Source of the DNA: Phycomyces nitens
Lineage: Eukaryota > Mucoromycota > Mucoromycetes > Mucorales > Phycomycetaceae
NCBI GenBank assembly: GCA_022702545.1
Contig: JAHRBC010000002.1
Span: 4,278,001-4,342,000 of the forward strand
Direction of reading: 5' to 3'
DNA length: 64,000 nt
Below, piece by piece: positions 4,208 through 62,627 of this stretch. Under the pieces are notes generated by a model, which saw only the letters and a program-made list of their open reading frames with translations, was not told where the DNA came from and did no database searches. How positions within the stretch are numbered: position 1 is the first letter of the stretch; each line of letters starts with the position of its first letter. A program made the position numbers and the translations under genes.

Positions 4208-4222
4208 CACTGGAAAAAGTAT

Positions 4223-4294
4223 ACGATTTTATGGTGGAGAAATATCTGTAGTATTAAAGTACCATCATCGATTTATTATTATTTCAATCTATAT
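4223..4294. repeat. Inverted repeat ATGGTGGAGAAATAT
   Basis: A 15-bp arm near 4231-4245 recurs as its perfect reverse complement near 4290, separated by roughly 45 bp. It sits just inside the candidate left end of element I and could be a subterminal binding site or hairpin. Confidence 0.6.
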
Positions 4295-4545
4295 TTCTCC
4301 ACCATACAAATATGAATGATACTATAGGGAATGACACCTGGTCTATCAGAGAAATAGGTCTTTAGTTCCACTTGAAAAACCTTTGATACCCCCCAACTTT
4401 TCTGTTATTAAAGAGGTCTAGTTTATTTTATATTTCGTGTCGAGTAAGCCTATTATTTATTGTATTTTGTGCCATATAAAGCTAATCGCAATATCGCGAT
4501 TTACAATCTATTCATATCCTTTACTTTTAACCTCAGTAACTCATC

Positions 4546-4690
4546 TCTTTAGGCTGAAAAGCAAAGGGAAATAGTGTCTTTAGACTGAAAAGCAAAGGGA
4601 AATAATGTCTTTAGACTGAAAAGCAAAGGGAAATAATGTCTTTTAGACTGAAAAGCAAAGGGAAATAATGTCTTTTAGACTGAAAAGCAC
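4546..4690. repeat. Tandem repeat, 31-32 bp unit, about 4.5 copies
   Basis: The unit reads approximately TTAGACTGAAAAGCAAAGGG followed by AAATAATGTCTT. Copies are nearly identical and differ mainly by one T in the TCTTT(T)AGA junction. It lies in the left arm of element I. No reading frame is associated. Confidence 0.85.
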
Positions 4691-5795
4691 CGTATCATAC
4701 GTTTACATACAAGCCTCATTTGTTGATTTTTAAAAAATAAATTGTTTTTTATTTATTTTTTATTTATTTAATATATATATTTCTAGATGAATGCTCTAAT
4801 CATATAATAATAATATATATGCTATTTCTAGAGTATTGTTTGATATTTTGCATCTAGCAAGACTAACAAGTTCCTACCAGATAGATATTGGGTACTGTCT
4901 TGGAGAAGAATGGTGCTATTTAATAGTAATAGGAGCAAAGATTAATTAAATAATTGTAATGGATCAAATTATTTGCTGTTGTACTTACAATGTTGATATC
5001 GTGAGTAGATGGACTACTTGATAGATTCATGAGAATATCTCAGCATATTAGCTGTCAGTTGAGATTGTCTAAGAATTGTAAAGTTATTAGTATTCTAGAT
5101 ATTCATATATACTATATTATCAGCGGTTTTCTTACCTGTGTGATTGTTTGTTCAGGCATGCGGATGAGATTCTTAATATATCTAATAGAGAATAGAACAT
5201 AGTTATATATGTATAAGTAAAGAGATATATATAATTTGTAATAATATAATAGCTTACCATAATGTTTGATTACAAGATTGAGTGACATGCAAAGCCGTGA
5301 TGACTGGAGGCATCAAGTCATTAGTAAAGAGAAGCTTTGAGCAAATATTATTTTATGTTATTAAACCATGTAAAATGACCAAAGAGAAGAAGCTTGTTGA
5401 TGATCTGTAAAGATAATGGCAAAATTATTAAGTAATTACATAAAATAATAAGAATAAAATAATTACCAGTATGTGTATAAGAGCAAGAGGCAAAAGAGAA
5501 AGAACAAAAAATAATTTGAGTTCCAAGGTGGTTTACCCCTAAAAAAAGTGCGGTCTCTAAAATCAATAATCCCAAAAACATAATATAATTGTCATTTTCA
5601 TTTTACAGTTAGACGCTTTATTTAATCAATAAAAGACACTAATTAGTTTTAAGCAAGTCATTGTAAAATATGATTATATATTGTAGAATAAACATCAGTA
5701 ACAGTTCACTATACTTCTTTACTTGTAAGAAACATTATAATATCATAAAGATAAAATATTAATAATTGTCATTTAAACATTTATTCATATAGAAA
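4691..5795. other. Left arm of element I without an evident gene on the plus strand
   Basis: AT-rich sequence with the second copy (5108-5187) of the exon-like repeat also found at 4130-4207. On the minus strand, exon-like blocks bounded by AG and GTAAG/GTAAT are visible, for example around 5258-5400 and 5140-5187, as in the left arms of elements II and III. No long frame is recognised. The 77-codon minus frame at 5348-5581 overlaps these blocks and is not convincing on its own. Confidence 0.4.
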
Positions 5796-7035
5796 ATGAA
5801 TAACTTTGACATCTCCAAAATCTCTACCAGTAGTCCTATCTATGCATCTATTATGCGTAGTGCTATGGCTAATGTCCAGAACAGTGAACTTACCACTGCA
5901 TCTACTTCGGCCACTGTAACAGCAGAAGAGACATCCAATTACCAGGATGATAATGAAATCCGTAGCTTGCTAAACTCGGCAAATATCAAGATGGATTCTC
6001 TTGAAAATCAAAACAAGACAATTGCAAGTGAAGTGGGTGATTGCAAGACGTCAATTTCGCAGCTTGAGAAGGTCATTGATAGACTTGTCACTGGCCAAAT
6101 CAGCATCAAGGATATTTTGTCTGGTGGAAATACTCCTGCAAGAACGATTGCAGTGGCCAGTTTGGTACCTTGGGGTGAGGAACCCTATGTTGTTGGAAAG
6201 AGATATCCAAAGATCTCAGTAAGTCTTGACTAGACATAAAATCAATAAGAAGAGTATCTAAAACCAATTTATAGAAATTAATCAATGGCTATATCAAGCA
6301 CCCAAACTTCACCAGTGACAACCCTGTCAAGATAATGAAGAATGATGCCAAGCAAGGGTGGTCCTTGACTAGCTACTACAACAGTAGCTATAACAATGCA
6401 CTGGCCATAAGGCTGATCACCTACTTGGGAAGACAAGAGGCAGGAAAGGCGATCCCTTTGAATGATCTTGCCAAAATGGTAAAAAACCATTTTGTCAACC
6501 AGGTGTGCCAGCGCCAGCAAACCCCAGAGGCTGCAGACAGAAAAAGACTTGCATGCAGAAGACGACAGTGAACTGTTACGGTAAGTTTATATTTTAATCA
6601 ATATAAAACTGTTATTTTCTTACACACTTAATATACAGATTCTTCATTGCCGAATCAAGGCATACAACAAGTACAGAGACCAGATTGACAGAGAGATGGG
6701 CAGAAAAAATTGCGACCATGCCCTCCAAAAGGAAACCATGTCTGAAGATGAGACTGATGGAGAAGATAAGGTAAAGGCCTTTCGCCCTAGCTGGAGAAGT
6801 GACAAGGTAATTATTTTAGCATAGTTTTTCATATTAAAATTCTATATCTTTTATTGATACACCTTATTATATTCAATAGCTCCAGACTTTTATAGATCTT
6901 GTTGATGATTTTGCTTCCCAGTCACTAAAGAAAAAGGGAAGCTCCATTTTGAAACGCGTCCGAGTAGTTCGTCAAAAGGATGTACCAAAGGATTTAGCAG
7001 TCCCATTGGCCGCGTGGACAATAAATAATGAATAA
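5796..7035 (+). pseudogene. CACTG-element accessory gene, copy I (four exons, one TGA)
   Basis: Exons are 5796-6218, 6275-6580, 6639-6806 and 6880-7035, joined by introns of 56-73 nt with GTAAGT/GTAATT donors and TAG/CAG acceptors; all introns are phase 0. The product would be about 350 residues. Exon 1 encodes a predicted coiled coil (SLENQNKTIASEVGDCKTSI). Exon 2 is 306 nt and basic. Exon 3 has MSEDETDGED followed by FRPSWRSDK. Exon 4 begins LQTFIDLVDDF. Codon 99 of exon 2 is TGA (6569-6571), where copies II and III both have CGT (Arg). I do not recognise the family. Position and conservation in three elements suggest a transposition cofactor, analogous to the second proteins of plant En/Spm elements; that is inference. 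The gene ends 85 bp from the convergent TNP2 gene. Confidence 0.75.
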
Positions 7036-7120
7036 ACTATCTATTTTATGTTTTATATTTTTTGGCTATCTTTTGCTGCAGATACTTTTGTGAGATAAGG
7101 ATAGGTAAAGATATTTATTT

Positions 7121-10100
7121 TTAAGCATATATTTTTCTAAGAACAGGAGCAACAATCATCTTAACATTTCCTGTCTCAGTTATATGCTCACCAATGGCAA
7201 CTGACAGCAAGATTCGGTGCACTGGCAAGATATTTTGATAATCCCCTCGGGCAAAGGCAAACTCATTCAACTCTATCCCTTCATCACTTCTTGTGTTCAG
7301 ACCAGATGACCTATACCATTTGACATAAGCAAAGGTATGATTGTCAGGTTGAAGAGTCTGGGGATTCACAAGCGAGTTGACAAACAAATACTGAATCTGA
7401 CCAGTAAAGGCACTTATACCATGGTCATTGTTCTCTTGGAAGATTGCCTGTATATATGACCCGCGGCGAACTGCACCATTGCTCCCTTTGTATATCTGGC
7501 CAAGCAAGTTGATCGATGGGAACTTCTGGATCATATTGTTGACAAAGACATTGCCGAACGAAGCTTGCTGGTAACTGCGAAGAGAATCATTGTCATAGGA
7601 GTCTCTGTAGAACTCAAGAAGATGCTCATACTCTTCTTCTACCATTCGTTCATATTGCCCTAGGGAAAGTGGGAAGGCCGACGAAGGAAGAGGTTCATTG
7701 CCTTTAATGTTGACAGTACTGAACTGCGCGGAATCAAGAAAGACTTTTAGGTCAAACCTAGGAGAAGCAACTTGGAAATATGGGGCGGTGGTGACAGTGG
7801 TGGTTGCAGTGGACGCATGGACAATTGGAGCAGGAGGAGGAGTAAACTCGACAAGTTCAGAAAGCAATGTAATATATGATGCATTTCCAATTACGGCTAT
7901 CATTCTACAAGCAATATCAACCTTGCAAGAGTCCTCAAGATATTTTTGCATGAACGTGGCCTCAAAGCCGTCTCTCTTGTTCGTCGTGTAGTTCTTCAGT
8001 ACACCATTGTACCTCTCGAAGCTGAAAAGCCAATAGCCATATACTGGCCCAAAGTTGACAATCGTCTCATGAAGATGCAGATGTAGATGCATGTTAGGTG
8101 AGATAAAATCTGCACCATACAAGTTCTGACATCCTTGTCCAAACAACTCCAAACAGAAATGGGCTTTGGCTAACTCATCTTCTGATATGCTGGGCTTGGA
8201 CAAGTATTGGCAGGCATTGACGAAGCACATCCAATTGTCAAGATTGTTCCTTGGCAACCGGTCTTTCAAGAGGACAGGCGAGTATACCAGGCACCAGGAC
8301 TTCCATTTGTCGGCCTTCATGAATGGGAAGTCCTTGCCAATCTTCTTCTTGAGGGTGCTCATATCTGGGGGAAGGACCATATTGTCAGCCTCTTGTTGCA
8401 TATCGGCCAAGTCTCTGTTGGTGATCAGACCAGCTGATCTCCACTTCTCCATCACTCGCTTCGAGGTTCCCAAGAAGAGGTTATGCATCGGGTCAATGAT
8501 GGTGCACTCGACTACATTAAAGTACTCAAGATTGTGGAGTTCTGACCAGCGGACTCCATTCTCCTTTTCCATCCTCTTTTGGTCTGCCTCACTCGATGCA
8601 CGCTTCCAGGCCAGGGCATCACGACGATTATCTGCTTTGGTTCGAGGCACCCACTCAGAAAAGACAAAACCAGAATAATCAACACCACCATTCCCTGGGA
8701 GATGGGAGAACTGGCGATTGCACTTGTGGCAGGCATTGGTGCTCATGTGGGACGTGAATCCGCATGTCTTGCGAGCAGCAGGAATGTCGCAGGCAACAAG
8801 AAAAAAAGCAGCACGGACAAGAGCACCAGAAGGACAGCGCACAGTAGGGATCACCACACCCACATACAAGGATTGGAGCTCGGCAACAAGAGGACGGAGG
8901 TAGTGATTGATCTCACTGGTCTTGGCTTCTTTTGGGCCAGGCATGAGGCCAACAAGAATGGTGTTCTCCTTCTTGTATTGTTCGTCTCATGGCAAGTTGT
9001 TTATGGACATGTAGATTGCCCCACAAGAGTAAGTAACCCCATCAAAAGGTTGAAACCAATCGATGTTTAGAGTCAACATGATTGATCGTTCATGAGCCAC
9101 GAATTGCTGACCATTGCTGTCTTCCAGATTGCTCCACTTGGCACCATCATAGACATCAAACATCATGCCTGCAACTTGCTGTCTATGTCTCCAGTGATTG
9201 ATACTGCTTTCGAATCCAGGGCAACAGAAGAGAACGGACAAGGCAGAAATCAAGGAGTTGTACATATACACCTTCTTTGGCAGTGCTACGTTTCTCGAAG
9301 GCTTGAAGAGATCGGCGCCACATATACCGCCAGAAAGTCTTCTGAAGTTGCAGCACTGGGGAACACCGTCAAACTCCATGTATGTCTTGTGGCACTCGCC
9401 ACACACCACGTAGCGCTGGACACCTTTGCAGACTTGGTTGAACCCTGTCATGGAGGAAAGACCACTCAAACTCAATGGCAGACGGAATGATTCGCCAAAG
9501 TGCACCAAAACCTCATTGAGGAACTTGATCAAAATTGCTCCTCCAGAGTTTACAACATATTTTGATATGAAAAAGGTGGCAAAGGCAGCAATGAAAGCAT
9601 GGGTGTTATCCGCTGGCATGTTGGAGGATGAGAATTGTTCTATTTGGGTTTTGTATATTAATATATGATATCTATGTTTTTCTTGTACTTTTACTAACCT
9701 TCAAATTCTTCAGCTTCATATTCAGAGCCTTCTATTGTATCAAGCTCAATGATATCCTCATCTTCATTTTCAGCTATAAACAAAAATTGGTAACAGACAC
9801 AGGTAAGTTTTCCATTGTTTTTTTTTTGGAGCAAAAAAGTAAATATTCAAGTGGCTGCAATTTATTATGCAATTTGAATAAAATTTTATACTTACATTCA
9901 ACATGAGCATCAACATCATGGACCTCGGCATCAATCTCCATGTTATTGTCATTCTCCATCTGAATTGCTTCAGCTGAAAATGCTATATTTTTTAAAATGT
10001 TTAATTACACTTTGAAATGCGAACAAATTATATATATATTACTTACAAGAAGCTGTCTGCATAAAATGTCTGACAAGATCGTTATCAGCATGTCTTCGTG

Positions 10101-10191
10101 CTGTTTGGGCAGATACTGCTACAAATCCTTGGACATTGAGAGAGCAGACTGAGCACTGGCATTGAACTTCGTTATTGAAAGTGTTGTACAT
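7121..10191 (-). pseudogene. tnp2: TNP2-type transposase, element I (four exons, one TGA)
   Basis: Read leftwards, the exons are 10047-10191, 9896-9982, 9699-9773 and 7121-9639. All introns are phase 1 with GT-AG ends, and the total of 2826 nt is divisible by three. Exon 1 encodes a CxCxxC...H zinc-finger-like domain. Exons 2-3 are acidic. Exon 4 holds the Transposase_21 (TNP2) region: DWFQPFDGVTYSCGAIY, then LVGLMPGPKE, then CDIPAARKT with a nearby CxxC, then IIDPMHNLFLGT. It ends with a DUF4218-like block (LHLHLHETI, GPVYGYWLFSFERYNG). One TGA at 8987-8989 interrupts NNLP-stop-DE, where both sibling copies have NNLPR. The gene stops at TAA beside position 7121. Apart from that nonsense codon it looks complete (about 941 residues). 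Confidence 0.88.
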
Positions 10192-10769
10192 ATTGTTTAA
10201 AGAGGTTATAGGATTGATATAAAGAAAAGTGGTTCAGGAACATAGTTTATTTTGCTTGTTTTATAGTTCAGGAACCATTTACATTACGTACATGCCGTTA
10301 TTATAAATATTAACAAATTCACTTAATGATTGTATTTGGAAATTGACATTATTTCATTTTAAATATATGACTATATACCAAGTAGTTGTTTTGTATATAC
10401 ATCTTTTAATAATATGATATCATGTCTATTTCTCCAACTCTTCATTAACCAAAGTACATTGTCATTAAAATATACTTTAACTAAATATATATTTCAAGTA
10501 GTCTCAGCTGCGCACTCTTGCCCATATTTGATAATTTATTTTCAACATCCCCAAGAATATTAATTTCGTGACCTTCAAAAGACAGAGAAAATATCGTAGT
10601 TGAATAATCAACAAAAATAAAGACATATTCTAATGTCCATCCAATAGAACTACCAAATATTCTTAACGCCATCTAAAGTGAGCAATCAAGAAAAGGGCTA
10701 ATCCAAGACCTATACTCCCCTCGTTTCAATTGATGTATTCAGAGTTGAAATCGGGTATTTTTTGCAGTG
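10192..10769. other. Right arm of element I, upstream of TNP2
   Basis: This is the presumed promoter and terminal region of the minus-strand TNP2 gene, with TA-rich tracts. A minus-strand frame at 10481-10672 (63 codons) has no recognisable similarity. The last 30 bp are the element end. Confidence 0.45.
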
Positions 10770-12915: not shown

Positions 12916-13088
12916 TTATCCTCCACCAGATTCAACAATACCTTTTGTTGATTCGGCATAAAACATCTCATTTACTATTTCATGATCTGGCCAATTGCTT
13001 GTTTTATTCAAGTCAATCATGCACATAATTTTTTGTACTTTTTATGGAGATCTACACTGTAAACTCAGCTTCGTGGATTACGTGTTCA
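12916..13088 (-). other. 3' untranslated region of chromovirus A
   Basis: This is noncoding sequence between the gag-pol stop and the 3' LTR, with the presumed polypurine tract at its left end. Confidence 0.6.
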
Positions 13089-17960: not shown

Positions 17961-17978
17961 TGTAGTTCACGAAAAAAA

Positions 17979-19285: not shown

Positions 19286-19362
19286 TTTTTTTGTGATAAT
19301 CCTCTGAAAGTAGTATTGTATTTCCTGTTGGCATTCTCCTCCTATTACAATAATTTTCATTT

Positions 19363-19656: not shown

Positions 19657-20829
19657 CACAATTAGATATAATGTGCTCGGACTTTTATTTCAACTTTTTC
19701 ACATACTTTTTCAAAAGCCTAAGACTTTTGCAAAAATGAAGTTCTAAAAAATCTGAGCCGCGCGTTTGATAGCCATAGTATCGTTTAATGTATCCCGCGG
19801 CTTTGTTTTCAATTAAAAAGCTTTAACAAAAAGTCTTAGTGTTTTAAAGATTTGCTAGGTACATTCGGACTTTTATTTCAACTTTTTCACGTACTTTTTC
19901 AAAAGCCTAAGACTTTTGCAAAAATGAAGTTATAAAAAATCTGAGCCACGCGTTTGATAGCCATAGTATCATTTAATGTATCCCGTGGCTTCGTTTTCAA
20001 TTAAAAAGCTTTAACAAAAAGTCTTAGTGTTTTAAAGATTTGCAAGGTACATTCGGACTTTTATTTCAACTTTTTCACGTACTTTTTCAAAAGCCTAAGA
20101 CTTTTGCAAAAATGAAGTTCTAAAAAATCTGAGCCGCGCGTTTGATAGCCATAGTATCATTTAATGTATCCCGCGGCTTCGTTTTCAATTAAAAAGCTTT
20201 AACAAAAAGTCTTAGTGTTTTAAAGATTTGCTAGTAAGAGACAATTATATAGCGGAGATCATAATTGTCATGAAGTAGAGGCAGATGGAAGGGCTATTGT
20301 CGGATTTTTAAAAAAGTCGAGAAAAAAGCAAGTCAAATATAGGTGACTTTGTATTTTTGTACCTGATAAACTGCAAATTAATCAAACAAAGGTTTAATAC
20401 ATAAATTCTATACACCTTTAAAGAACTTACAAAAATGTCTCACCCTACTAAGAGATCAAGAGTCGCGAAGAACTTTACTAGAGGAGAATCTCACCAATTC
20501 ATTAGCACCTCAGAGACAGTCAGTGATGACTTGATCAACTTGAATGAGCAAGACAATGACGAAAATACTTTGGAAGACCGAGATATTCAGGGCATTACAG
20601 AAGATATTACTTCGGCTGTATATGCTACTCACTTGTTGAAATGGCATGAAGGAGCTGATAGTTCTCTTCGAGGCTCCTACCAGAAAAACTCGAGAACAAC
20701 AAAATGGAGAAAAAAGAAAGCAGAGAAAGACAAGATGGACTATCAAGGAAGCTATCGTCTCACAGACAAAGGCTTCACAATCCAGAAAAAGCAGAGTCAA
20801 AACAATGACCACTGCAAAAACTGTGGGGT

Positions 20830-21480
20830 AAAACCATGTATATAACCAGAAATAAATAGGGGAAAAGTTTAGGTTTTCAGGGGAGAACAGAATACTACGA
20901 GTATGGGAGTAAGCAAGGTTTCTCCTGGGCTCAAAGTCGAATCTCATACAGGTGCAAAGTTGAAAACTTTTGGGAGAGTAGGGTTCGTTAGCTTTTTCTG
21001 CATATAGATTTTTGGTGTTTACCAGATTTTTGTGCTTAAAACTATGTTTTTAGTGTAATAGATTATGTGTTTATAAATTGAAAAGACGATTACACACAGC
21101 AAATAAAGTTGGGGAGAAGCTGGCTTTCTCCATGGTATCAAGGATATCCTCAAGCAATTAACCAATCATCGAATACTATTACTGTGCAATCAAGCATAGA
21201 ATGATCCCCCCATTGTTTTATACCCCGTACTTATTAGGTTTATGGTTTATATTTGTGTTTATTGGAAAGAATAGAATGGCTCTGTACACAAGCTCTAATA
21301 CTATTACTGTTTATCCTTGCCGCTTCTACCGGCCTACTTGATACTACTTGGATCGGGTGCTTCACTACTGAACAATACCTGAAAATAGGGACCGACGGCG
21401 ATTTGGGTGGTTGCGGCAGTATTCTAATACAATAAAAGTTATATTAGTGACATATATTCAAGAGTGCGGGTGTTGTTCAA
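20830..21480. other. Left terminal arm of element II
   Basis: No gene is seen on the plus strand. The block around 21262-21530 is related to 50055-50320 in element III (shared GAAAGAATAGAATG and TTACATTG(T/C)AAG(G/A)GATGG). The same order in two otherwise diverged elements implies a conserved function of this arm. Confidence 0.5.
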
Positions 21481-23004
21481 GATGCGAGGTATTTTATACT
21501 TACATTGTAAGGGATGGATAAGAACGGACAAAGTGGGGCTGAGTTGTGCAGCATGGCATGGCATCTTGTATGATTAGATTGACTAGAGATGGGGTAAAGT
21601 AAATTAGTATGGGTGAATTGGGTAATAGAATAATCGATTTACATACCAGAAACAGAGTTGACAATTAAGTAGAGGGATGTTACGTGATGACCAACAATAG
21701 ATTCTTATTAAGAGTATAGAACAATATTAGTAAATAGCCAGAATAATATTATGGAAAGAGATAAAGACCAAGAAAAGGCATTACCATTATGATAACCAGT
21801 CGTAGATGATGAAGGGGCCAGATGGGGTGGACAGTGATGGCGGCGGTCTATAGTAGAATAAGAAACGTTAAAGGAGAAAATAGTTTGACACGAAGAGTTT
21901 TTACCAAGCCACCAATGACGATACCATATAATAGACCGTTTGAGTAGAGGAGGTCTATAAGATAAAAAGAGAGAATCAGAATAGTGTTATGGAAAGTATA
22001 AAGACTAAGAGACAGCATTACCGTTATGATAACAGTTGAGGATGATGGGGAAGCCAGATGGGGTGATTGATGGCGGCGGTCTATAGTAGAATAAGAAACG
22101 TTAGAGGATAAAATAGTTTGACACGAAAATATTTTTTACCAAGCCACCAATGACGATACCATATAATAGACCGTTTGAGTAGAGGAGATCTATAATATAA
22201 AAAGAGAGAATCAGAATAGTGTTATGGAAAGTAGAAAGACTAAGAGACAGCATTACCATTATGATAACAGTTGAGGATGATGGGGGAGCCAGATGGGGTG
22301 ATTGATGGCGGCGGTCTATAGTAGAATAAGAAACGTTAAAGGGGAAAATTATTTGACACGATTTTTTACCATGCCACTGATGACCATACCATATAATAGG
22401 CGTGTGAACAGAATATGTCTATAAAATAAAAAGAGAGAATAACAATAATATTATAGAAAAGTATAGACCAAGAAATGGCATTACCATTATGATAACCAGT
22501 TGTAGATGATGGAAGAGACGGACAGGGTGTGATGGGGGTGACCCAAGTAGAATAAACAACGTTAGAGAAAAAAAAAGTTTGACACCAAAAGGTTCTTTTT
22601 TACCATGACACTGATGACGATACCAATATAATAGACTGTGTGAGTGGCGGAAGGCTATAAGATAAAAAGAGAGGATCAGAATAATATTATAAAAAATATA
22701 AAGACCAAAAAAAGATATTACCATTATGATTACAATCGTACATGAAGGAAGAGGTAGATGGGGTGATTGGTGGTGTGGTCTACAATAAAATAAGCAACGT
22801 TAGAATAGAAAATCGTTTGACACAAAAAGATTTTTTTAGCCCAATATTGATGATTGAACCATATAATAAAGCTGTGTGAGTTGAGGAGGTCTATAAAATA
22901 AAAAAAGAGAGTCAGGATAATTTGCGAGATGCTAAAGGCACATTCAACTGACCACAGATTGTTTGGATGAGCAATGCAGGCAGGATGTATTGGAATGAGC
23001 GCAT
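21481..23004 (-). repeat. Array of ~240-bp modules with exon-like blocks, element II left arm
   Basis: About five copies of a 235-240-bp module span roughly 21710-22925. On the minus strand each has a block of about 50 nt (ACCTCCTCTACTCAAACGG...) and one of about 63 nt (ACCGCCGCCATCACTGTCC...), each preceded by a pyrimidine-rich stretch ending TATAG and followed by GTAAAA or GTAATG. A possible first exon with ATG lies at 23004 (reads MRSFQYILPALLIQTIC, signal-peptide-like). Two further splice-bounded blocks lie between 21500 and 21710. Block lengths sum to 113 nt per module, so a frame is not kept through the array; a spliced noncoding RNA or a decayed gene is as likely as a protein. Confidence 0.5.
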
Positions 23005-23421
23005 GTTTATAAAGAAGCCGCCGATTTTTTAGTGTAAAGAGGTGTAAAAAAGAAAGAAAAAATGGGCCCGGATATAGGAAACGAGGGAAAGGAAAAAAGA
23101 GCAAAAAGAAAAGAATACAAGGATATATAATTTGAAACAGAGACAGAATAGGTGTAATGGATAGAATCTAAAAACAAATGGAGCCATTCATTAGTGTGTA
23201 CAAGAAGTGTTTGGATCCGCTCATCAAACTCTTTTTTTATAAATACTCTGTATTTTATATTCTCAAAGGCCTGTTCACACACAACACACCCTTCTGCTTC
23301 CCAAAACCTTTCAATAAAACAAATATCAATTGTATGTATAAGACATTACATATTTTATATGAGATCCCATGAAATAAAGACAATTAACAATTGAAAATTA
23401 TTATTTGATATTTTGTAGATT
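23005..23421. other. Intergenic region between left-arm unit and accessory gene II
   Basis: No gene is seen. It probably holds divergent promoters. A possible 5' UTR intron acceptor (TTTTGTAG) lies 3 bp before the accessory-gene ATG. Confidence 0.4.
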
Positions 23422-24689
23422 ATGGCAAACAGACGTGCAATTGCTCCTCGAACAACCGACGAGTTCAGGGAATTGATGGACAGATTGACCAGTGTGGAGG
23501 CTGGTTTGTCCAATGTGACTGGAGAGGTGCGTTCTGTTGGCACCAGGCTAGCCACTATGGACACCAGGCTTGGTGTTATCATCCAAGATGGTGCCAGTAC
23601 CATTGCCATCTTGGATGGTTTTGGAAATGTCCCTGGGGCAACTTCTTCTGCCCCCGTTGCTGCTGCTTCCGTTGCTGCTGCCCCCATTGTTGCTGCCCTC
23701 ATTGTTGCTGCTCCCGTTGCTGCTGCTCCTCTCTCCCCCACTGTGGTTGCACTTGCTGCGTTTGAAGCTCCTCAAATGCAGGAAACCAACCGCGCGTATG
23801 TGAGTATATACTATTGAAATATATTGCTAGTCTAATACCTTCTAAAAATATATTAGGGTTTCATCAGACGCTACCTGAAGACCCAAAACTTCAGGTCCAA
23901 CAACCCAGACTTGGTTGAGGCTAACAACCGAAAGCCTAGCTGGAGAACGGACGTGGCCTTTAACGAGAGTCCCAACAAAGAGTTGGTACTCGAGATAATG
24001 GCCTATCTCCAGCCAAGGTTTCTCGAGTCTGGGTTGAGGTACCCTGACCTCCGCCAGTATATATACACCAACTTCAATGGAAGGCGGACTCAGGAGAAGA
24101 AGTCTTTTGAGAAGCGAGCAGAAGCGAATGCTCGCTCAAGAAGAAATGGCCGTCAGGCGGACGTGAGTTATTATTTTTATTATGAAAAGGATTCCTATTA
24201 ACTCAATTGACAATCATATATTTCATCAGCATCTCACTCGCCGCCGGGAGGCATACTCCAATAACAAGGCGGCGATTGACCAAGAAATGGACCGGGACTG
24301 CAGCAATCTCATCCAAAAGGCAGCAATGTCTGAGGGTGAGTCTGACGATGAGGGGAGCGATGCTTCGTTTGGGCGTCGCATCCTCACTGCGCGCCCAAGC
24401 TGGCGAAGCGACGAGGTAAATAAATTCGCAAAGAATATTGTTTATTATTTTTATAGAATACTAATGAATATTTTAGTTCAATCATTTCCTTGAACTCGTC
24501 GATGACTACGTGCTTGCCGGCTTGGGAACAAGACATCGTCAGATGCTTCGTCGAAAGTTTGGCCGCGTTGACGAAGTAGCAGTCCTGGAGGGAATGGTCC
24601 CTCCCCGCCTGAATGGGCCATTAGAAATTAAAAAATTTAAAAAAATAAAAAAAACCTCATCTTTGCTCCTCTCATGCACTCAATCCTAA
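23422..24689 (+). CDS. CACTG-element accessory protein, copy II (four exons)
   Basis: Exons are 23422-23799, 23857-24162, 24230-24415 and 24477-24689. All introns are phase 0 with GTGAGT/GTAAAT donors and TAG/CAG acceptors. The product is about 359 residues and is uninterrupted. Exon 1 begins with a predicted coiled coil (LMDRLTSVEAGLSNVTGEV) and then an Ala/Val/Pro stretch from a GTTGCTGCT-type repeat. Exon 2 (306 nt) encodes the conserved domain with FNESPNKELVLEI and a basic end. Exon 3 encodes AMSEGESDDEGSD then RPSWRSDE. Exon 4 encodes FNHFLELVDDYV and a Lys-rich tail. I do not recognise the family. A DNA-binding or transposase-partner role is inferred from the basic exon 2 and its constant pairing with TNP2. 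Confidence 0.82.
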
Positions 24690-24774
24690 AGACTCATTCA
24701 AATCCTATACTTGTTTATTTTATTCTGGTATGCAATCTTGTTTAAAAATGAGTAAAGACATATTTTATTAAAAC

Positions 24775-27700
24775 TTAAGCATATATTTTTTTAGGTAAAG
24801 GGATAACCAGTATCTTCTTTACATTATTTTGGGTCATATGTTCAGCCAGTGCTACTTCTAACAGAATGCGATGTACAGGCACAATACTGTGGTAGTTGGC
24901 TGGAGAAAATTGTGGCCTACAAATGTCAACACTTTCATGTTCTCTTGTACGCTCGGAATCAAAGACAAACCAGCGAACGTACGCGAAAACATGTTGCTTA
25001 TTGTGATGACGATTTAGTCGGCCATGAGACATAGGGGGCATAGACCGGGAATGGACAAACATATATTGAATCTCGCCTGTGTACGCAGTCGGATTTTCGT
25101 CGTCATTTCCAGAGAACAGAGCTTGAACATAAGAACCATGACTGACAGTACCCTTCTTGCCTTTGTATGACTGGCCAAGGAGATCGATAGACGCGATCTT
25201 GCATATTTGGTTGTCAACAAAATACGGCGAAGATGAGGCATGTCAGTAATCCACTAAATCTGGCTTTGCATATACGAGCTTATAGTGTTCCAAGAGATAG
25301 GGATATTCAAGGTCGTTCATTGATTCATACGGTTTCATAGAGAGTGGCAACGCAGAAGGAGGGAGAGGTTCGTTGCCTTTGATAGAGAGTGGATTCATAG
25401 AGGATTGCATAAATGCTCTCAACCGGAAAGGGCCTTGAGACATGGCATAGGAGGGGGCATAGGAGGAGGCATGGGAGGAGGCATGGGATGGGGCATAGGA
25501 TGGGGCATAGGAGGAGGAGGTAAGCTTGGACATAAAGGGGCGGAAGGGGGTTTGACTGGGACATTGAAGAACAGAAGATACATAATCGCCCTTGTATGCA
25601 TCATTAATAAAGTTCTTCATGTAGGTGGACTCAAAGCCATCTCGTCTGTTGGTCTTGATGTTTTTTAACAATCCATTGTATCTCTCAAATGAAAACAGCC
25701 AATAACCGTACACTGGTCCAAAATCACGAATAATGGTATGAAGATGAAGGTGTAGGTGCATGTTACAAGTGAGAAGATTCGCAGGATATAGGGACTGACA
25801 TCTTCGACCGAACGTTTCCAGGAAATCGTGGGCATCGGTTGCCTCGGAAAACGAGATTGCTGGCTTGACCAAAAGGCGGCAGGCATCAACGAAGCTGATC
25901 CAGTTGTTGAAGTTGTCAGGAGGGAGCACACCTTTCAACAGGACTGGAGAGTATACGAGGACCCAGGACTTCCACTCGTCTGCTTTCATGTAGGAAAAGC
26001 CTTTTCCGATCTTGCCTTTGAGGACAGCATAATCGGCCGGCAGAACCATAGACTCGGCAGTCTTTTGCATGGCAGCAAGATCACGGTCTGTGATCAGGCC
26101 ATTGTCAATCCACCTCTCGACCATTCGCTTGGCCGTACCCAAGAAGAGATTGTGCATGGGATCAATGATCGTGCAGCGAACAACGTCAAAGTATCCAAGG
26201 CGATGCAACTGGGACCATCGAACGCCATTTTCGATTTCCAGCTGATGCCTTTCTGAGGGCGTACTGGCACTCTTCCACACCTCAGCATGCAACCGATTTT
26301 CGACACCACTGCGAAGGGACCACTGTGCAGAGTCGAAGCCACGAAAGTCAACGCTGTTTGTTCCGTCCAAACGAGAGAAACCACGACTACACTTGAAGCA
26401 TGCATGGGTGCTGTTGTGGGAAGTAAACCCACTCGTCTTTCTGGCAGCTGGAATGTCGCACGCCACCATAAACAACGCAGCACGGACGGTAACACCTGAT
26501 GAACACTCGGCAGTTCGCATCTTCACACCAACGTACAGCTCTTCCAAATCGTCCACCAACGGCTTGAGATAGTGGTTGATCTCGTCAGATTTTGGTTCCT
26601 TGGGCCCAGGCATAAGTCCAACAAGAATGATGTTCTCTGCCTTGAATCGCTCAGCCCTAGGAAGATTGTTGACGGCCAAGTAGATCGCACCACAGGAATA
26701 GGTCACCCCATCGAACGGCTGGAACCAGTCAACGTTCAATGTCAGCATGAGAGAACGTGGGTCTTGGACGAAAGAAACACCATTCGAGTCCTTGAGCTCC
26801 TTCCACATGGCGCCGTCGTACACATCGCACATCGTGTCTTCTACCTTCAGCTCCTTGTTCCAATGGCGGATTCTTGCTTCGAAATCTGGGCGGAGGAAAA
26901 ACACTCTCAATGCCTGCTTGACAGAATGGTAGTTGTATTGGCGTCTGGCTACCAAAGCACCTGATGATGACACCTTCATCAACTGGGAATTGCAAGAGGA
27001 ACGTGCTCCTGGCTTCTGGAAATCGCACCGAAGGGGAACAGACCCAGCTTCCTCGTACACCTTGTGACAATCCTGGCACACAACAGATTTCCTTATTCCT
27101 TGGGACATGGCTGAAAATCCTGTCATGCGCTGCAGACCAAGCAGGCTTGTGGGCAGTTGGAAATCTTGATCATAGATTGTCAAGAGCTTGTTGACAAACT
27201 CGATCAAGACAACGGCGCCCTTGTCAACCACATAACGGGATGCAAACAGGACAACAGAAATGGCGATGAACCTGTGCACTGGGTTTTCAGGCATTTGGGG
27301 GGAGGCAAAAGGATCTATTTTAAAATGGAAAATATTAACACCCAATTTTTTAGGCTTTTTCTCTATTTAACACTGACCTTCACCATCCAACTCCTCAACT
27401 TCGATCTCTTCCAAATCGCCCTCGTCGTCATCATCACCACCGTCCATCTCATTCTCATCGGCATCGGCATCAGCATCGGCATTAGTCTCATTGTCAGCAC
27501 CAATTTCGCCATGATCGGCAAAAGGATCGGCTTCCAAAAACGGCGAGTTCTCCTGATCACCAAGTACATCTGAGGACCCGACTTTATGGAACAAGGTAGC
27601 CAGATATAGAATATAGTAGTTATTTAGTTTCTATTGCTATGCCAATAAATAATCCTTACGTTCAAAATCAACATCTATCATATTGCGTTGAGAGGAGATT

Positions 27701-27902
27701 TCTAGTAAAATATATTATGATACAATTCATAGAGTGTTTACAAAAGTAACTTGCCCCTTTCGCAATTTTCAAGACGCTCTAATCTTGCTCTCTTTGCATG
27801 ACGTTGAGCAGTCAGTTTCTGGACAAGACTGTAACCATTCTTGCTTGTACTGCATCTAGGGCAAAAGCACTTCTCATTGTAGACATCGGAAGTAGAAGAC
27901 AT
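24775..27902 (-). pseudogene. tnp2: TNP2-type transposase, element II (four exons, one TGA)
   Basis: Read leftwards, the exons are 27755-27902, 27660-27701, 27378-27581 and 24775-27314; total 2934 nt, divisible by three, all introns phase 1. The first intron has a GC donor (GCAAGT) instead of GT. Exon 1 has the zinc-finger-like CFCPRC...H. Exon 3 is very acidic (Asp/Ala and Asp/Glu repeats). Exon 4 carries the Transposase_21 blocks (DWFQPFDGVTYSCGAIY, LVGLMPGPKEPK, IIDPMHNLFLGTAKRM) and the DUF4218-like GPVYGYWLFSFERYNG. A Ser/Tyr/Ala/Pro repeat is encoded by GGAGGAGGCAT-type tandem repeats near 25440-25520. A single TGA at 25243-25245 interrupts DY-stop-HA. The gap to the convergent accessory gene is 85 bp, the same as in element I. 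Confidence 0.88.
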
Positions 27903-28144
27903 GGTATTTGTGTATTGAAGTTTAAACAAAAAGGAAACAAGTGTTACATATGCTTTATTTGCTACGGTTTTATAAGAGTATAAAAATATTATCTCCTGTT
28001 CTTTATATCCGAGCCAATTAAATACAATAAAACAATATTTTCAAGGTGATCACAAAAAAACGTGTTGAGTTGCAAATTTGCTTCAGCTTTCTCCACGTTC
28101 TCAGTTAACTGTGCACAGTAGAATAGCCCACCATTTTCCCAGTG
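27903..28144. other. Right arm of element II
   Basis: TNP2 upstream region and terminal repeat; no gene. Confidence 0.5.
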
Positions 28145-35618: not shown

Positions 35619-35654
35619 AGTTTCTTAGGAGGAAAAATAGCTTCAGCTACCAAT

Positions 35655-36306: not shown

Positions 36307-36318
36307 ATTGGTAGCTGA

Positions 36319-49629: not shown

Positions 49630-49658
49630 CACTGGAAAAACGGGCTTGATTACCAGTG

Positions 49659-50337
49659 TGGAAAGATAAGTAAACAATAGTGTAATTACCTGAATTATGA
49701 TAGACTCTACATATAATTCCGCTTGAGAACAACCTGGTCTTAGCTGCTAGCAGTATGTCGTGATAATTGCTAGCATAATTATTGAAAGAGGTGCTGCAGC
49801 TGAGGTCCAGTAGCACTTTCGGCGGGTATATCTAATTAGGTTATGGGGGGATTAAGCATTTAAATGTGCGGTTCCGTTTTGAAAGAATCTATTTTGAGAG
49901 AATAACACTGTAGTATTTTACATCTTTACTACACTTTTTTCATCCTCATAGTGTAGTATTTAATCTTCTTTATTCTTCTTGACCAATAATATATCACCCA
50001 TTATTTGATTTCCCGTTTATAATTGATTGGTAATGTTTTACGTTTTTATTTTTATTAGAAAGAATAGAATGTTTCTAGGTTTAGGGTCTACTATTACGCC
50101 TATTCCTATGGCCTAGCCGTTTCTACCCGGTTGCCTGCTGCTATTTGGATGGAATATTTTTCTACATAAAAAATACCTGCAAAAATATGAATATCCAGTG
50201 ATTTTTTGGGCTGTGGGAGTGTTCTGTAAAAGATAAAGAAGTGTTATTGATATGGGGTACAAAGAGAAAATTTTTGTGTGTCAAAAGATACTTACATTGC
50301 AAGAGATGGGCAAGAGTGCGCAAAGGGGACTTGAATT
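49659..50337. other. Left terminal arm of element III
   Basis: No gene is seen. It contains the inverted pair GTAGTATTTTACATC / GTGTAGTATTTAATC around 49910-49960, and a block (50055-50320) related to the left arm of element II. Confidence 0.5.
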
Positions 50338-50847
50338 TTAAGGCTGGATGGGCTGTGTGGTGGGTTTTACTATAAAAAAGGGAATAAAAATTAATATGGG
50401 TGAACAGAGTGATGATATATTTAATTTACATACCAGGAGCCGAATGGGTTATCAAAGTAGGGGGTATGGTGTGCAAAGGAAGACCAAGTGAGTCTATAAA
50501 GCACATAATAATAATTATTAATAAATAGTCTGAATAATATTTTGGATAAGCAAAAGAGATTTATAAAGAATATTACCTTTATGATTACAATCACGAATGA
50601 TGGAGGAGGCCGATGGCGTGAATAGAAAGGGCAGTCTACAATGGAATAGAGTCAGAGAGGGAACAAGTATGATTGAAAGAAAATTTTTTACCTGGTGCCG
50701 ATGACATCCTTACATAAGTTGTTTGGCCAATCTAAGAGAGAAAGTGAAAATAATTTTTATCAAGATGATGATACCAGTGAATGCGGCCAGTGAGTATTTG
50801 TCTAGATGGCCATTGTGGAAAGGATGAGTTGCAATGGGAGCGCACAT
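50338..50847 (-). other. Candidate five-exon micro-exon gene in the left arm of element III
   Basis: On the minus strand five blocks, 50775-50847, 50692-50731, 50577-50635, 50434-50493 and 50338-50369, are each separated by GT-AG bounded gaps with pyrimidine-rich acceptors ending TTAG/ATAG/GTAG. Joined, they give 264 nt: ATG, 87 codons without a stop, then TAA. The product is Pro/Thr/His-rich (starts MCAPIATHPFHNGHLDKYS) with no family I recognise. Block sequence and order resemble the repeated modules of element II. Coding status is uncertain; a spliced noncoding RNA is possible. Confidence 0.42.
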
Positions 50848-51143
50848 CTATGAAAAAGAGATTAATTTGTGTGTATAAAGAGGTATAAAAAATGTCTTAC
50901 CAGAGAAAGGCGCCAATATCAAAAAGCAAGGAAAAGGAAAAATAAAGGGAACCAAAAAAAGGAGAGAGTCTGAAAAAATTTTCACCTTTGAAGCATGCTG
51001 CGGAAAGCATGATGGATTGAGCCCAAAAACAATATCAAGGCCGATTTGCATCTCAGTGCTTCAAGACAATAGAGGAACATCTTTATAGTCATTCAAAATG
51101 CCTATATATAATGACCTTTTTGATATTCAACCTCTCTTACCTT

Positions 51144-51181
51144 TACACACACACACACACACACTTACTCACTCACTCACC
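51144..51181. repeat. Microsatellite (AC)n followed by ACTC repeats
   Basis: About ten AC dinucleotides followed by TTACTCACTCACTCACC, in the 5' region of accessory gene III. Confidence 0.9.
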
Positions 51182-51276
51182 CAAACAGTTTTTGTATGTA
51201 TATGGTATTTATTTTTATTTCAATTGAACAAAAACTAATAATTATAATCGAAATATACTTTACCATATTCTAGAAA

Positions 51277-52448
51277 ATGGTTAACCAAAGAAGAACAATT
51301 GCTCCTCGTCCCACTCCTGCTGGTCCTGCTCCTGCTCCTGCTCCTGCTCCTGACATGGAACAGATTATGGCAAAGCTTTCCGAGATGGAAGGCAAAATGA
51401 CAAACGTCGAAGTGCAAGTGGGGTCTGTAAAGGCTCAACTCAACGTTGTTGTGGCTGGTAATGCTTCAGCCATTAGAGCAATCGGTGCATTGGGTAGTGC
51501 CCATAACACTGCTCTTGTCAACTCTCCTGCCATTCCTGTTGCACCTGTTGCTCTTCTACCAGTTGTGCCAACCAAGCAGACAAACAACGATGTCTATGTA
51601 AGTAGCAAATTATATAGTATGTTATCAATTCATTATCTCATATACTGTGTCAGACGGCAATTCGCAAATTTATGTGGAAGCCAAAGTTTTCGTCGAGAAT
51701 AGCTGCAGAGATGTTGGCAAACAATAATAAGCCAAAGTGGAATACAAACGTTCCTTTCAACCAAAGTCCAAACAAGGAGTTAGTTGTTAGGATCCTCAAC
51801 TACTTGGAGCCCAAGTTTGAGAGCAAGGGAATGAGGAGAAGCGATCTGTACAAGAATCTTCACACCAACTTCAGGAGCCAAAGTTCCAGAGACAAGAAGT
51901 CTTCTTCGGAGAAAGCTGCCGTGAACACTCGTTCAAGAAGGGCAAACCGTGCAGGCGAGGTAAGATATACTTTAAATAACTAATAAATATTTAATATCAA
52001 AGAAACAGTATTAACTGAGAATTTTAGAGCCTTTCTCGGCGCTTGAATGCTTACCTTGACAATGAGGACACAATCAATGAGATGATGGGCAAAGATTGTG
52101 CCAACATGATAATAAAGGAGGCAATGTCCGAGGGTGAATCTGACATAGAGACATCTGAAAGTGGTACCAAACGTGTCATCCGTACTGTTCGCCCAGGATG
52201 GAGAAGTGATGAGGTAAATAATAATAAGGCAATAACTGGGTTACGTGTCTGAATTGTTATATAAAATATTAATACTTGTATTTCAGTTTAATAGACTCAT
52301 CACTATTGTTGACTCTCATGTCCTTGATGGAATGGGTTTGCATTCCCATCAATTCTTGCCTCGGGTTTTTAAGAGTGTGTCAAACTCAGCGGCCCCAAAT
52401 GACGTGGTTTCCCGCCTCCCACAGTGGGCTTTTAGAAACGATGTATAA
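51277..52448 (+). CDS. CACTG-element accessory protein, copy III (four exons)
   Basis: Exons are 51277-51597, 51654-51959, 52028-52213 and 52287-52448. All introns are phase 0 with GTAAGT/GTAAGA/GTAAAT donors and CAG/TAG acceptors; about 323 residues, uninterrupted. Exon 1 encodes a Pro/Ala repeat (GPAPAPAPAPD) and a predicted coiled coil (ILAKLSEMEGKMTNVEV-like, here IMAKLSEMEGK). Exon 2 (306 nt) has FNQSPNKELVVRI and a basic end. Exon 3 (186 nt, the same as copy II) has AMSEGESDIE and RPGWRSDE. Exon 4 starts FNRLITIVD. Strict conservation of exon sizes argues for selection on the protein. Function is unknown; a transposase partner is inferred. Confidence 0.82.
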
Positions 52449-52577
52449 ATAAAGTTGTTGTTTATATTTTCTCACCCACTTCCCCAAGAACGTAATACCG
52501 TCAATATATATAAAGTATATTTTTTGGTGCCTTAATTTTGGTTATCTTTAAAAGAAGAAGATATTTTTTATTTTATA

Positions 52578-55500
52578 TTAGGTGCAGATTTTTTTGGGAA
52601 GAGGGATGACGAGCATTGTTTTCCTATTAGTTCGAGTGATTTGCTGTCCAATGGCAACTTCTAACAAAATCCTATGCACTGGAAGAATACTGTTCAAGTC
52701 ATCTGGAGAATGCCTTGGGAGATACACCTCAACACCTTCATTCTCTCGCGTTCTATCACAGGTTGTGACAAACCATTTAACAAATGCGAAAACATGTTGA
52801 TTGTCATGAACCATGCGAGTCGGGTGGAGATCATCAACTGGTGGTGGCACGAACTTGTGTGTAAAGAGATACTGAATCTGGCCTGTATATGCATTTACAA
52901 CGTCCTCATTGCTGCCAACAAACAGTGCTTGTATAAACGACCCTCCATTTCCTTGTCTGTTTGAACCGCGATATACTTGGCCAAGTAAGTTGATGGACTT
53001 CAACTTTGTGATCTCGTTATCAACAAAGGAAAACGGGGAGAAGGCGTGCTGATAGCTGGTAAGACTGGGAAGGTCATAAGCATGCTTATAATAATCCAGC
53101 AAATGTGGATAATCGATATCACCAATTAATGTTTTCATTCCAACTTGCAGAGGAAAAGCCGAAGGAGGAAGAGGCTCGTTACCCTTTGCAGAATCCATTG
53201 TGGTCAGAGAAGCATTTACAAAATCTTGCAAGTTGAACTGAGGATGATTGATTGGCGAAGTTGTGGCTGGAAGTGTGGGTGTAGATACGAGCTTGGCAAA
53301 GACAGAAGAGAATGGGATCTTACTGGAGTATCCAAGGACTGCTTGCACATAATCGGCCTTGTATGCTTCTTCTACGAAATTCCTCATGCAAGTTGCCTCA
53401 AAACTATCCTTTCTGTTAGTGCTCACGTTCTTTAGCAAACCGTTGTATCGCTCGAACCCAAAGAGCCAATAGCCATACACTGGTCCAAAATCACGAATGG
53501 TCTCGCGAAGATGGAGGTGCAGATGCATATTGCAGGTGAGGACACTAGGAGGGTAAAGACGCTCGCACTTTTGACAGAATTTTTCAAGGTAGTCATGGGC
53601 ATCGTCAAGTTCTTCAAATGATAGGGATGGCTTTACAAGGAGACGGCAGGCATCGACAAAGTCCATCCAGTTTCTGAACTTGTCATCATTGAGAACATCT
53701 TTCAACAAGACGGGAGAGTACACCAGCACCCAGGACTTCCATTCGTCAGCTTTCATAAATGAAAATCCCTTTCCAATTTTCGCTGTTAATGAAGTGTATG
53801 AAGCTGGCAGGATCATTGTCTTGGCGATTTGCTCCATGTCATTAAGTTGTCCATTATTAATATCGCCACCAGCGATCCACTTGTCCACCATCCTCTTCGC
53901 CGTACCCAAGAATAAGTTGTGCATGGGATCAATGATCGTTCCACGTACTAGATCAAAGTATCCAAGGCGATGCAACTGCGACCATCAAACACCATTTTCG
54001 ACCTCCAGCTGATGCCTTTCTGAGGGCGTACTTGCACTCTTCCACACCTCAGCATGCACCCTGTTTTCCACACCATTACGAATAGACCACTGCGAATAGT
54101 CGAAACCACGGAAATCCACACTGCTTGTCCCAGCAAGACGACTGAATTGACGGCTGCATTTGTAGCAGGCGTTAGTGCTATTGTGGGACGTAAATCCGCT
54201 TGTTTTTCTGGCTGCTGGAATATCACATGCCACCATAAGGAGTGCAGCATGGACAGTTGTTCCAGATCCACATTCAAAGGTTGGAATCGTCATTCCAACG
54301 TACAACTGCTCAAGGTCATCCACCAACGGCTTGAGATAGTTGTTGATCTCATAAGATTTGGGTTCCTTTGGTCCAGGCATTAACCCAACCAAGATGACAT
54401 TCTCTGGTTGGAATCTTTCATCTCTGGGCAAGTTGTTGATTGCCAAATATATAGCACCAGAGGAGTGTGTTACACCATCGAATGGCTGAAACCAGTCGAT
54501 GTTTAGAGTCAACAGAAGAGAACGAGGGCGGGCAACAAATGAAAGACCATCACTGTCTTTCAACTCCTTCCACATCTTGCCATCGTAAATGTCGCACATG
54601 GTGTCTGTCACCTTCAGCTCGTCGTTCCAGACGCCGATCTTCTGCTCGAAACCAGGACGAAGAAAGAGAACCTTGAGTGCATCTTTGATGGACTGATACA
54701 CAAAGATTTTCTTTGGCACCATGGCACCAGATGTCGACTTCTTTGTCAGCTCACAGTTACAAGTTATATTTGCGCCTATTTTCACAGAGCTGCAGAGAGG
54801 GGGAACGGAAATAGATTCTTCGTATATTTGATGACAATCTGGACATGACACGAATCGTTTGATATCTTTGGTGATATCACTAAAACCCGTCATCTTCTGA
54901 AGACCAGCAAGACTTGTTGGGAGCTGAAAGTCTTGTCCGTAGACTGTCAAGAGCTCATTGACAAACTGGATCAATACAACGGCGCCCTTGTTGACTGCAT
55001 AACGGGATGCAAAAAGAACAACGAAAATGGCAATGGCCCTGTGCACTGGATTTTCGGGCATACCAGGAGCACCAAAGGGTTCTGTTTTAAAAAAGGAAAA
55101 TTATTAACACTCAATTTTGGCATGCTTCTTTATGATAGTTATTCAATACTGACCTTCGCCGTTGAACTCCTCAACATCAATCTCCTCGACATCACTCTCC
55201 ACATTGTCGCCATTGTTGCTGTCATTGACAATCTCGGTGTCATCGCAATTGACCTCATTGTCAACCAAATCATCGTCAGACATCGGGACGGAATCCAAAA
55301 AAGGTAGGTTGGCCTGACCGCCCATTGTTTCCATGGATTCAGATTCAAACATCGGGATTGCTACAAATATGGAATAGATTAGTTTATTGCCCTTAAACTG
55401 GTTTTCAAATAAATATTTTTTACCCTCAACATCAACATCCATAATGACACTTTGTGTGCCTGAGGTTCAATTAAAGAATAATGGTTATTATTGTGCAGTA

Positions 55501-55665
55501 AATATAAAATTAATACATACTACTCTCAGTTCGTCCAGCCTCTTCAATTCTTGCTCTTTTGGCATGACACTGATAATTGCGTCTGGATACCATAGAGAAC
55601 CCTTCTTGGTTACCATTGCATTTGTTACAGTAACAGGCAGTGTTATTTTGGGAAGCAGAAGACAT
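52578..55665 (-). pseudogene. tnp2: TNP2-type transposase, element III (four exons, one TGA)
   Basis: Read leftwards, the exons are 55521-55665, 55424-55459, 55154-55360 and 52578-55081; total 2892 nt, divisible by three, all introns phase 1. Exon 1 (145 nt, as in element I) has CYCNKC...H. Exons 2-3 are acidic. Exon 4 has DWFQPFDGVTHSSGAIY, LVGLMPGPKEPK, IIDPMHNLFLGTAKRM and the DUF4218-like GPVYGYWLFGFERYNG. The only lesion is TGA at 53985-53987 in ENGV-stop-WSQL, where copies I and II both have Arg (CGG/CGA). The stop is TAA. The convergent accessory gene ends 129 bp away. Confidence 0.9.
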
Positions 55666-55878
55666 ATTTTGTGTGATTCGATTGTAAGATAAAAAAGGAA
55701 ACAAGTGCTTCATATGTTTTATTTGCTGTCAATTTATAGACAAAAAAAAACTATTGTATTTTACTTGTTTGCCCGAACCAATAGGATCTGTTAAAAAGTC
55801 TTTTTTTATTTGAATAAAAAAAATCTTCTGAGTTGAAAAAAAGGCCTATATTTCCTACACCTTCAAGTACTCTTGGTG
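55666..55878. other. Right arm of element III
   Basis: TNP2 upstream region, without a gene, ending in the terminal repeat at 55879-55907. Confidence 0.5.
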
Positions 55879-55911
55879 CACTAGTAATCCAGCCCATTTT
55901 TCCAGTGAATC

Positions 55912-62623: not shown

Positions 62624-62627
62624 ATAG

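Follow-up and report, generated by a model that had tools for sequence, protein, structure and literature searches.

A conserved convergent partner gene accompanies TNP2 in CACTG-ended transposons of Phycomyces nitens

Introduction

What is known of the dependence of CACTA transposases on second proteins comes mainly from plants. One example is maize En/Spm, which has short terminal inverted repeats and generates 3-bp target duplications, as do the elements described here. These elements came to light in a 64,000-nucleotide stretch of the Phycomyces nitens genome (GenBank assembly GCA_022702545.1, contig JAHRBC010000002.1, positions 4,278,001 to 4,342,000, forward strand), hereafter the window. 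An earlier reading of the sequence alone (the sequence-only reading) had described a family of CACTG-ended transposons there, in which a TNP2 transposase gene faces an unrecognised partner gene. We followed this up in the window and across the genome (48.98 Mb in 11 contigs).

As told in the accessible part of PMC1636069, CACTA transposases of plants depend on second proteins, and TnpA and TnpD of maize En/Spm are splice products of one transcription unit. The same part of that paper, which describes SmTRC1, proposes a TnpA-like second protein and reports matches in Rhizopus oryzae. For EnSpm and its relatives, the C(2)C and H(3-4)H motifs are given in the portion of PMC12730594 at hand, and the main text, to that extent, does not contain the word Mucor.

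Results

Three elements in the window share a tail-to-tail architecture

The three diverged elements that the sequence-only reading had delimited in the window were all found where it had placed them, each with a plus-strand partner gene running tail to tail into a minus-strand TNP2 gene (Table 1). The gene coordinates reproduce the reported distances between the convergent stop codons, namely 85, 85 and 129 bp in copies I, II and III. The four exons claimed for the partner were modelled in copies II and III and read by eye in copy I, for which no model was made, while the four exons claimed for TNP2 are consistent with copy III, where the main exon was computed and three small upstream exons were recognised by eye. 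Sequence comparison also agrees that the left arms of copies II and III are related. None of the three copies is intact, since each TNP2 main exon contains one premature stop; the partner of copy I has an apparent premature stop as well, and the C-terminus of the copy II partner is unlike that of its relatives.

Each window copy has a match to Transposase_21 (best E 7e-23), together with a weaker one to DUF4218 below the cut-off. Genome-wide, there are 785 TNP2 candidates, of which 150 were scored; all 150 are over the cut-off, and 69 have an open frame of at least 800 amino acids. When 11 elements were compared, the second D, C(2)C, H(3)H and E proved to be kept in all of them and the first D in nine. 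The two exceptions, A_L010 and G_L022, have N in place of the first D, and both have premature stops in TNP2. Domain, catalytic motifs and zinc-type motifs agree with the CACTA-like lineage proposed earlier, and by these features the elements are classed as cut-and-paste DNA transposons of the CACTA/EnSpm (CMC) kind. Among the best 120 of 1264 protein-database matches, TNP2 relatives include proteins from Rhizopus, Circinella, a lancelet and a fish.

As in CACTA/EnSpm (CMC) transposons, the termini have the form 5'-CAC...GTG-3'. The literal CACTA pentamer of plant elements is absent from the termini of the 19 elements for which both ends are available, with CACTG in its place: all 19, most of which were chosen by that motif, have CACTG(G/C) at both ends. 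Without mismatches, the extended motif CACTG(G/C)AAAAA occurs 1281 times genome-wide versus 75 times for the reversed pattern, and 14 times in the window with up to one mismatch, against 4.8 expected. The ends described earlier are thus above chance as a motif, but the right end of copy II departs from it by one mismatch (CACTGGGAAAA). Target duplications are of 3 bp in 12 of the 19 elements and of 4 bp in one (copy III), and were not found in the other six, which upholds the CACTG termini and 3-4 bp duplications of the sequence-only reading. In copy III, deleting exactly 4 bp restores the Gypsy frame that the element interrupts. Copy III and the element L013, which are 98-100% identical end to end, lie at different sites with different duplications. 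This pair records recent movement.

The partner is linked to TNP2 and diverges with it

We sampled 40 of the 150 scored TNP2 copies (38 spaced at roughly every fourth place and two others) and, for each, read ~1.1 kb at the expected partner end. The partner is present on the strand opposite TNP2 in 37 of the 40. The remaining three (L039, L053 and L060) lack both the partner and the TNP2 end and are therefore cut or interrupted copies. In the reverse direction, 20 partner copies were picked by hand (17 of family A and three of another), and 18 have a convergent TNP2, in one case over only 67 amino acids; for the other two (L080 and L082), there is no TNP2 within the 0.7 kb read. Tail-to-tail linkage thus holds in both directions in this one genome, with degraded copies under-represented because both samples were drawn from the best-scoring rows. 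In public records, partner and TNP2 bear consecutive locus tags in Mucor saturninus (INT47_005588/005589, on a 5281-bp contig) and in Phycomyces (PHYBLDRAFT_171282/171283).

Trees of the partner and of the TNP2 core from 11 elements recover the same well-supported groups: both separate families {A,C,II} from the rest and contain {D,G}, {B,E} and {F,(B,E)}, with support >0.9. The order within {A,C,II} differs between the trees and is poorly supported in them. The partner evolves faster, showing 39-47% identity where the TNP2 core has 77-78%, and between {A,C,II} and {D,G} the partner proteins are no more than 23-28% alike. Joint divergence of the two genes is consistent with both acting on the same ends. 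Of the co-evolving cofactor put forward by the sequence-only reading, linkage and agreeing trees sustain the co-evolution, and the role of cofactor is one we infer.

The partner is a gene mostly kept by selection

Scripted models of the partner, available for families A, C, D, F, G and II, consist of four exons separated by three short introns; in families B, E and H, which lack such a model, exons were assigned by similarity or visual reading. The length of exon 2 is 306 bp in five of the six modelled families (A, C, D, G and II) and 305 bp in F. Two of the models (L009 and L015) are letter-for-letter identical to M. saturninus proteins P0001 and P0003, and the copy III partner is 95% identical to P0001. 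The ratio of nonsynonymous to synonymous substitution rates (dN/dS) is 0.26-0.46 in the nine of 12 pairs for which it could be computed. By these measures, the partner is a real gene, mostly under purifying selection.

Were the partner a passenger, dispensable for transposition and carried for some other benefit to the element or the host, it should be lost in some families. Instead, it is kept in each family examined, mostly under purifying selection, and its tree agrees with the TNP2 tree, which weakens such an explanation. The two genes are nevertheless not locked together throughout. Over most of their length, copy III and L009, both of family A, are 90-99% alike; over ~600 bp at the 3' end of TNP2 the figure falls to 67-74%, so that the C-terminal region of the transposase differs as if it had been exchanged, with partner, arms and ends shared between the two. 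D copies contain similar divergent patches. A passenger would also be easier to reconcile with the one partner-like gene that stands alone (see below). On balance, we think it improbable that the partner is a passenger. The premature TNP2 stop of copy III is common to seven of 61 copies that carry one TNP2 motif, and may reflect either the spread of a defective copy by a helper transposase or repeated CpG mutation.

Another possibility is that these are ordinary, already catalogued EnSpm elements whose second reading frame merely went undescribed in the literature. EnSpm is reported from all Mucorales sequenced in PMC7928374, and plant CACTA elements are described with two reading frames in PMC8978399, as far as the available parts of these papers go. 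Set against this, the partner belongs to no Pfam family and its public homologues are named hypothetical or uncharacterised proteins, two of them with an additional label, and we give this explanation little credence. Two protein-database searches, with nine and 11 matches, found partner relatives only in M. saturninus, Phycomyces blakesleeanus and P. nitens, the nine-match search having scored only the 7997 candidates with most shared words. This could mean that the partner is restricted to a sub-clade, or that elsewhere it has diverged too far to be detected.

AlphaFold predicts the partner with a mean predicted local distance difference test (pLDDT) score of 83, with a coiled coil at residues 25-72 and a helical core at residues 98-227. 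In L009, exon 2 encodes 23 lysines and arginines versus eight aspartates and glutamates. The predicted protein consists of an N-terminal coiled coil, a basic helical core largely from exon 2, and a C-terminal β-α-β module, the last with a near-invariant acidic plus WRSDE motif. A BEN domain, suggested by the pattern in exon 2, was rejected, with no BEN chain among the Foldseek matches listed and none from Pfam. A missing fold match does not by itself amount to a new fold. The additional UniRef label, an incomplete "Homeodoma," is attached to P0002 and P0013; no Pfam homeodomain match was obtained at E 1 in 24 alignment members, and none appears among the Foldseek matches listed.

A candidate cofactor for the element ends

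The reading that we prefer, and consider reasonably probable, is that the partner is a TnpA-like cofactor with a putative DNA-binding role, encoded by a separate gene without recognised relatives. In this model, TNP2, a DDE-type transposase, acts at the CACTG ends, and insertion leaves duplications of 3, sometimes 4 bp. The partner would form oligomers and bind family-specific sites in the inner terminal repeat or in the left arm, thereby bringing the ends and TNP2 together or controlling the element promoter. Both proteins have diverged jointly since the common ancestor of the sampled families. Consistent with binding at the left end, the identity of the left terminal repeat (positions 12-31) tracks partner identity across eight families (Mantel rho 0.54, p 0.006).

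Several observations weigh against a DNA-binding cofactor. The partner has no Pfam match near the cut-off and no recognised DNA-binding family, no Foldseek match at E 0.001 in the PDB and viral libraries, and, as its best PDB sequence match, fibritin at E 0.07. Among the 12 dN/dS pairs, one (two C copies) has two amino acid changes and zero silent ones, and two are saturated. Partner and TNP2 identities correlate only modestly across the eight families (Mantel rho 0.35, p 0.04), even if the well-supported tree groups agree as the sequence-only reading would predict. The right terminal repeat tracks TNP2 (rho 0.60, p 0.002) more closely than the partner (rho 0.27, p 0.09). Finally, a simple 9-mer count revealed no short subterminal repeat arrays like those of plant CACTA elements. 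No 9-mer occurs at least three times in the 500 bp of both ends in five of eight elements, and few do so in B, C and E, the count being one of exact words; the repeats in the B element correspond to a 31-bp tandem repeat. Taken side by side, the left repeat-partner and right repeat-TNP2 correlations, over only eight families, hint at a division of labour between the ends.

CpG decay and a possible role against silencing

In all seven copy pairs compared (L009-L024 and the window copies), transitions per site are ~7-fold to >100-fold more frequent at CpG than elsewhere. CpG transitions make up the majority of differences in four of the seven pairs (14 of 18 between copy III and L013, 24 of 29 between two C copies); in those A and D pairs that are more diverged, they account for less than half. 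This excess is the mark expected of cytosine methylation.

The excess, seen in every pair, invites the idea that the partner is an anti-silencing factor, which would bind element DNA to counter host CpG methylation and not help to cut DNA. An analogue is VANC, the anti-silencing protein of VANDAL elements. TNPA itself reactivates a methylated promoter, according to the accessible part of PMC1636069. CpG depletion is not clearly special to the elements, though: the observed/expected ratio is 0.48-0.74 in five elements, as compared to 0.64 in a 7-kb host stretch (L089) and 0.76 in its ARG5,6 part, and the CpG level alone therefore says little about the elements. We regard a purely anti-silencing partner as unlikely, and note that this role and that of a cutting cofactor are mutually compatible.

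A partner-like gene stands alone between host genes

A search with a family D partner uncovered, in the L089 stretch and away from the element clusters, a partner-like gene flanked by ARG5,6 (acetylglutamate kinase/reductase) on one side and by the Nas2 proteasome chaperone on the other. There is neither a TNP2 match nor an element-end motif in the 7 kb read, and the listed exact end motifs around it jump from C1:539,689 to C1:889,423. Its exons 1-3 measure 372, 306 and 213 bp, the same lengths as in family D, and their 297 codons are all open. Relative to the elements, synonymous sites are near or at saturation, yet the frame is open. For exons 2-3, dN/dS is 0.10 and 0.11 in the two of four comparisons with a finite dS (2.4-2.6), and for exons 1-3 it is 0.24-0.26, ratios that are rough at such dS. 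Exon 4 shows an apparent frameshift at an A run relative to the elements, either real or an assembly error. Other genomic matches of this gene are 39-68% identical, and no separate public protein corresponds to it in the two partner protein-database searches. These features point to a probable domestication.

Left arms contain a spliced-looking unit

The left arms of families A, C and II have in common small, spliced-looking exons on the minus strand and a polyadenylation-like signal. The unit spans 49660-51100 and 20830-23400 (minus strand) in the window and recurs in the left arm of L015; in copy II, it lies in 235-bp tandem units. Summed over eight family representatives, there are 48 donor-like sites on the minus strand versus 15 on the plus strand and ~21 expected, with no excess in C and II alone (3 versus 2.3, and 3 versus 3.3). 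In its longest spliced frame, the arm surpasses all 40 shuffles in four of ten cases (A_III, A_L010, II and D_L020), while in the other six it is matched by one to 17 of the 40. The predicted proteins of A_III and A_L010 are different, and the frame shared by C and II is broken by small indels. With such discordant proteins, frame-breaking indels and shuffles, a coding third gene is not established. Rfam returned for the left arm of copy III only a snoRNA match far below the cut-off.

Further elements and surrounding repeats

The fourth end noticed earlier, at 57074, belongs to a D-family element whose left end has been separated from the remainder by a Gypsy retrotransposon (Table 1). The latter occupies 57110-62623, has matching 272-bp terminal repeats and is inserted 37 bp inside the D-family element with a 5-bp duplication, ATAGT. 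As the D-family element itself sits in another Gypsy reading frame, the insertions are nested. On the other hand, a remnant proposed at 2457-2871 has no match among the 19 element sequences at E 1e-3 and is thus not confirmed. Elsewhere in the genome, L016 was rejected as a gene-free element; it reads instead as a B-family deletion derivative, with a second, divergent Transposase_21 element apparently inserted at 2552-5025.

Three further long terminal repeat retrotransposons lie at 12297-18278, 30649-35949 and 35960-41312 of the window, and are recent insertions, since over the 300 bp compared their terminal repeats show 99-100% identity. A tRNA gene was identified by Rfam at 41439-41510 (minus strand), ~130 bp from the position listed as the end of a Gypsy terminal repeat. 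A 188-bp tandem repeat covers 18838-20240, with three adjacent copies, two of which are 96% identical to the first, and a diverged fourth (65%).

Table 1. Features of the CACTG elements and related genes. Coordinates are window positions unless another locus is named.
Feature	Coordinates	Strand	Remarks
Copy I, B-family element	4208..10769	.	6562 bp; no target duplication found; from ends and family alignment
Copy I partner gene	5796..7035	+	four exons by eye; one apparent in-frame stop near exon 2 end
Copy I TNP2 main exon	7121..9700	-	Transposase_21; DUF4218 below cut-off; one premature stop
Copy II element	20810..28144	.	7335 bp; 3-bp target duplication GAC
Copy II partner gene	23422..24689	+	four exons modelled; C-terminus departs from relatives
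Copy II TNP2 main exon	24775..27366	-	one premature stop
Copy III, A-family element	49630..55907	.	6278 bp; within Gypsy reading frame; 4-bp duplication AATC
Copy III partner gene	51277..52448	+	exons 51277-51597, 51654-51959, 52028-52213, 52287-52448; open, 324 aa
Copy III TNP2 gene	52578..55665	-	main exon 52578-55100, one premature stop; three small upstream exons by eye
Copy III left arm	49660..51100	-	spliced-looking unit, small exons
D-family element, left end (bases 1-37)	57074..57110	+	split by Gypsy retrotransposon
Same D-family element, resumed	62624..64000	+	left arm 96% identical to D_L020; partner matches from ~90 bp past the window
Divergent TNP2 3' region of A_III and A_L009	~3000-3650 (element coordinates)		67-74% alike
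Standalone partner-like gene	L089 2985-3982 (C1:723,684-724,681)	-	between ARG5,6 and Nas2; family D partner search

Discussion

The elements described here belong to a high-copy fungal lineage in which the second protein has an alignable gene to itself in about ten families within a single genome. This number of families, together with the natural differences in the TNP2 C-terminus, makes it testable which protein reads which part of the ends. Since public records name them hypothetical proteins, partner copies can pass as host genes. The standalone copy may mean that a transposon cofactor, rather than a transposase, was taken over by the host. A bolder proposal, which we put forward tentatively and hold to be possible but short of an even chance, is that the partner founds a new DNA-binding or anti-silencing family with a fold that is not in the PDB, is general in a CACTA lineage of Mucorales, and was domesticated at least once as a host regulator, in the form of the gene between ARG5,6 and Nas2. 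Under the same proposal, the elements may also carry a third, divergent spliced unit in the left arm. The partner gene is not described in the literature searched, a weak negative since the search was incomplete and did not include Repbase.

Comparison with known systems shows what is shared and what differs. Like the elements of P. nitens, maize En/Spm combines a Transposase_21 transposase with a second element-encoded protein. Unlike in En/Spm, the two proteins are here encoded by two separate convergent genes, between CACTG ends and without clear subterminal repeat arrays. Moreover, the partner matches no Pfam model; its sequence similarity to TnpA was assessed by Pfam search only, with no match near the cut-off. 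SmTRC1 and the other TRC elements likewise have Transposase_21 and occur in animal and fungal hosts. However, SmTRC-PrA is produced by alternative splicing and went undetected in other species, as stated in the accessible part of PMC1636069, whereas the partner is a conserved separate gene. The fungal EnSpm, Plavaka and ESTA elements (CMCT clade, Kojima 2025) share the C(2)C and H(3-4)H motifs and the CAC...GTG termini, and EnSpm also the 3-bp duplications, but the elements covered in the available portion of that work (PMC12730594) carry a TET/JBP dioxygenase as extra gene, in place of which we find an unrelated orphan. PIF/Harbinger elements with Nuwa, described in the same portion of PMC12730594, are also two-protein DNA transposons with a separate DNA-binding protein, but, unlike here, their transposase is of another superfamily and they have a Myb/SANT domain that is recognised as such. 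Second proteins of CACTA elements are, as a kind, already known. What is new, as far as we have seen, is that this one is encoded by a separate convergent orphan gene, which is present in nearly all sampled copies, occurs in two genera of Mucorales and has a standalone copy.

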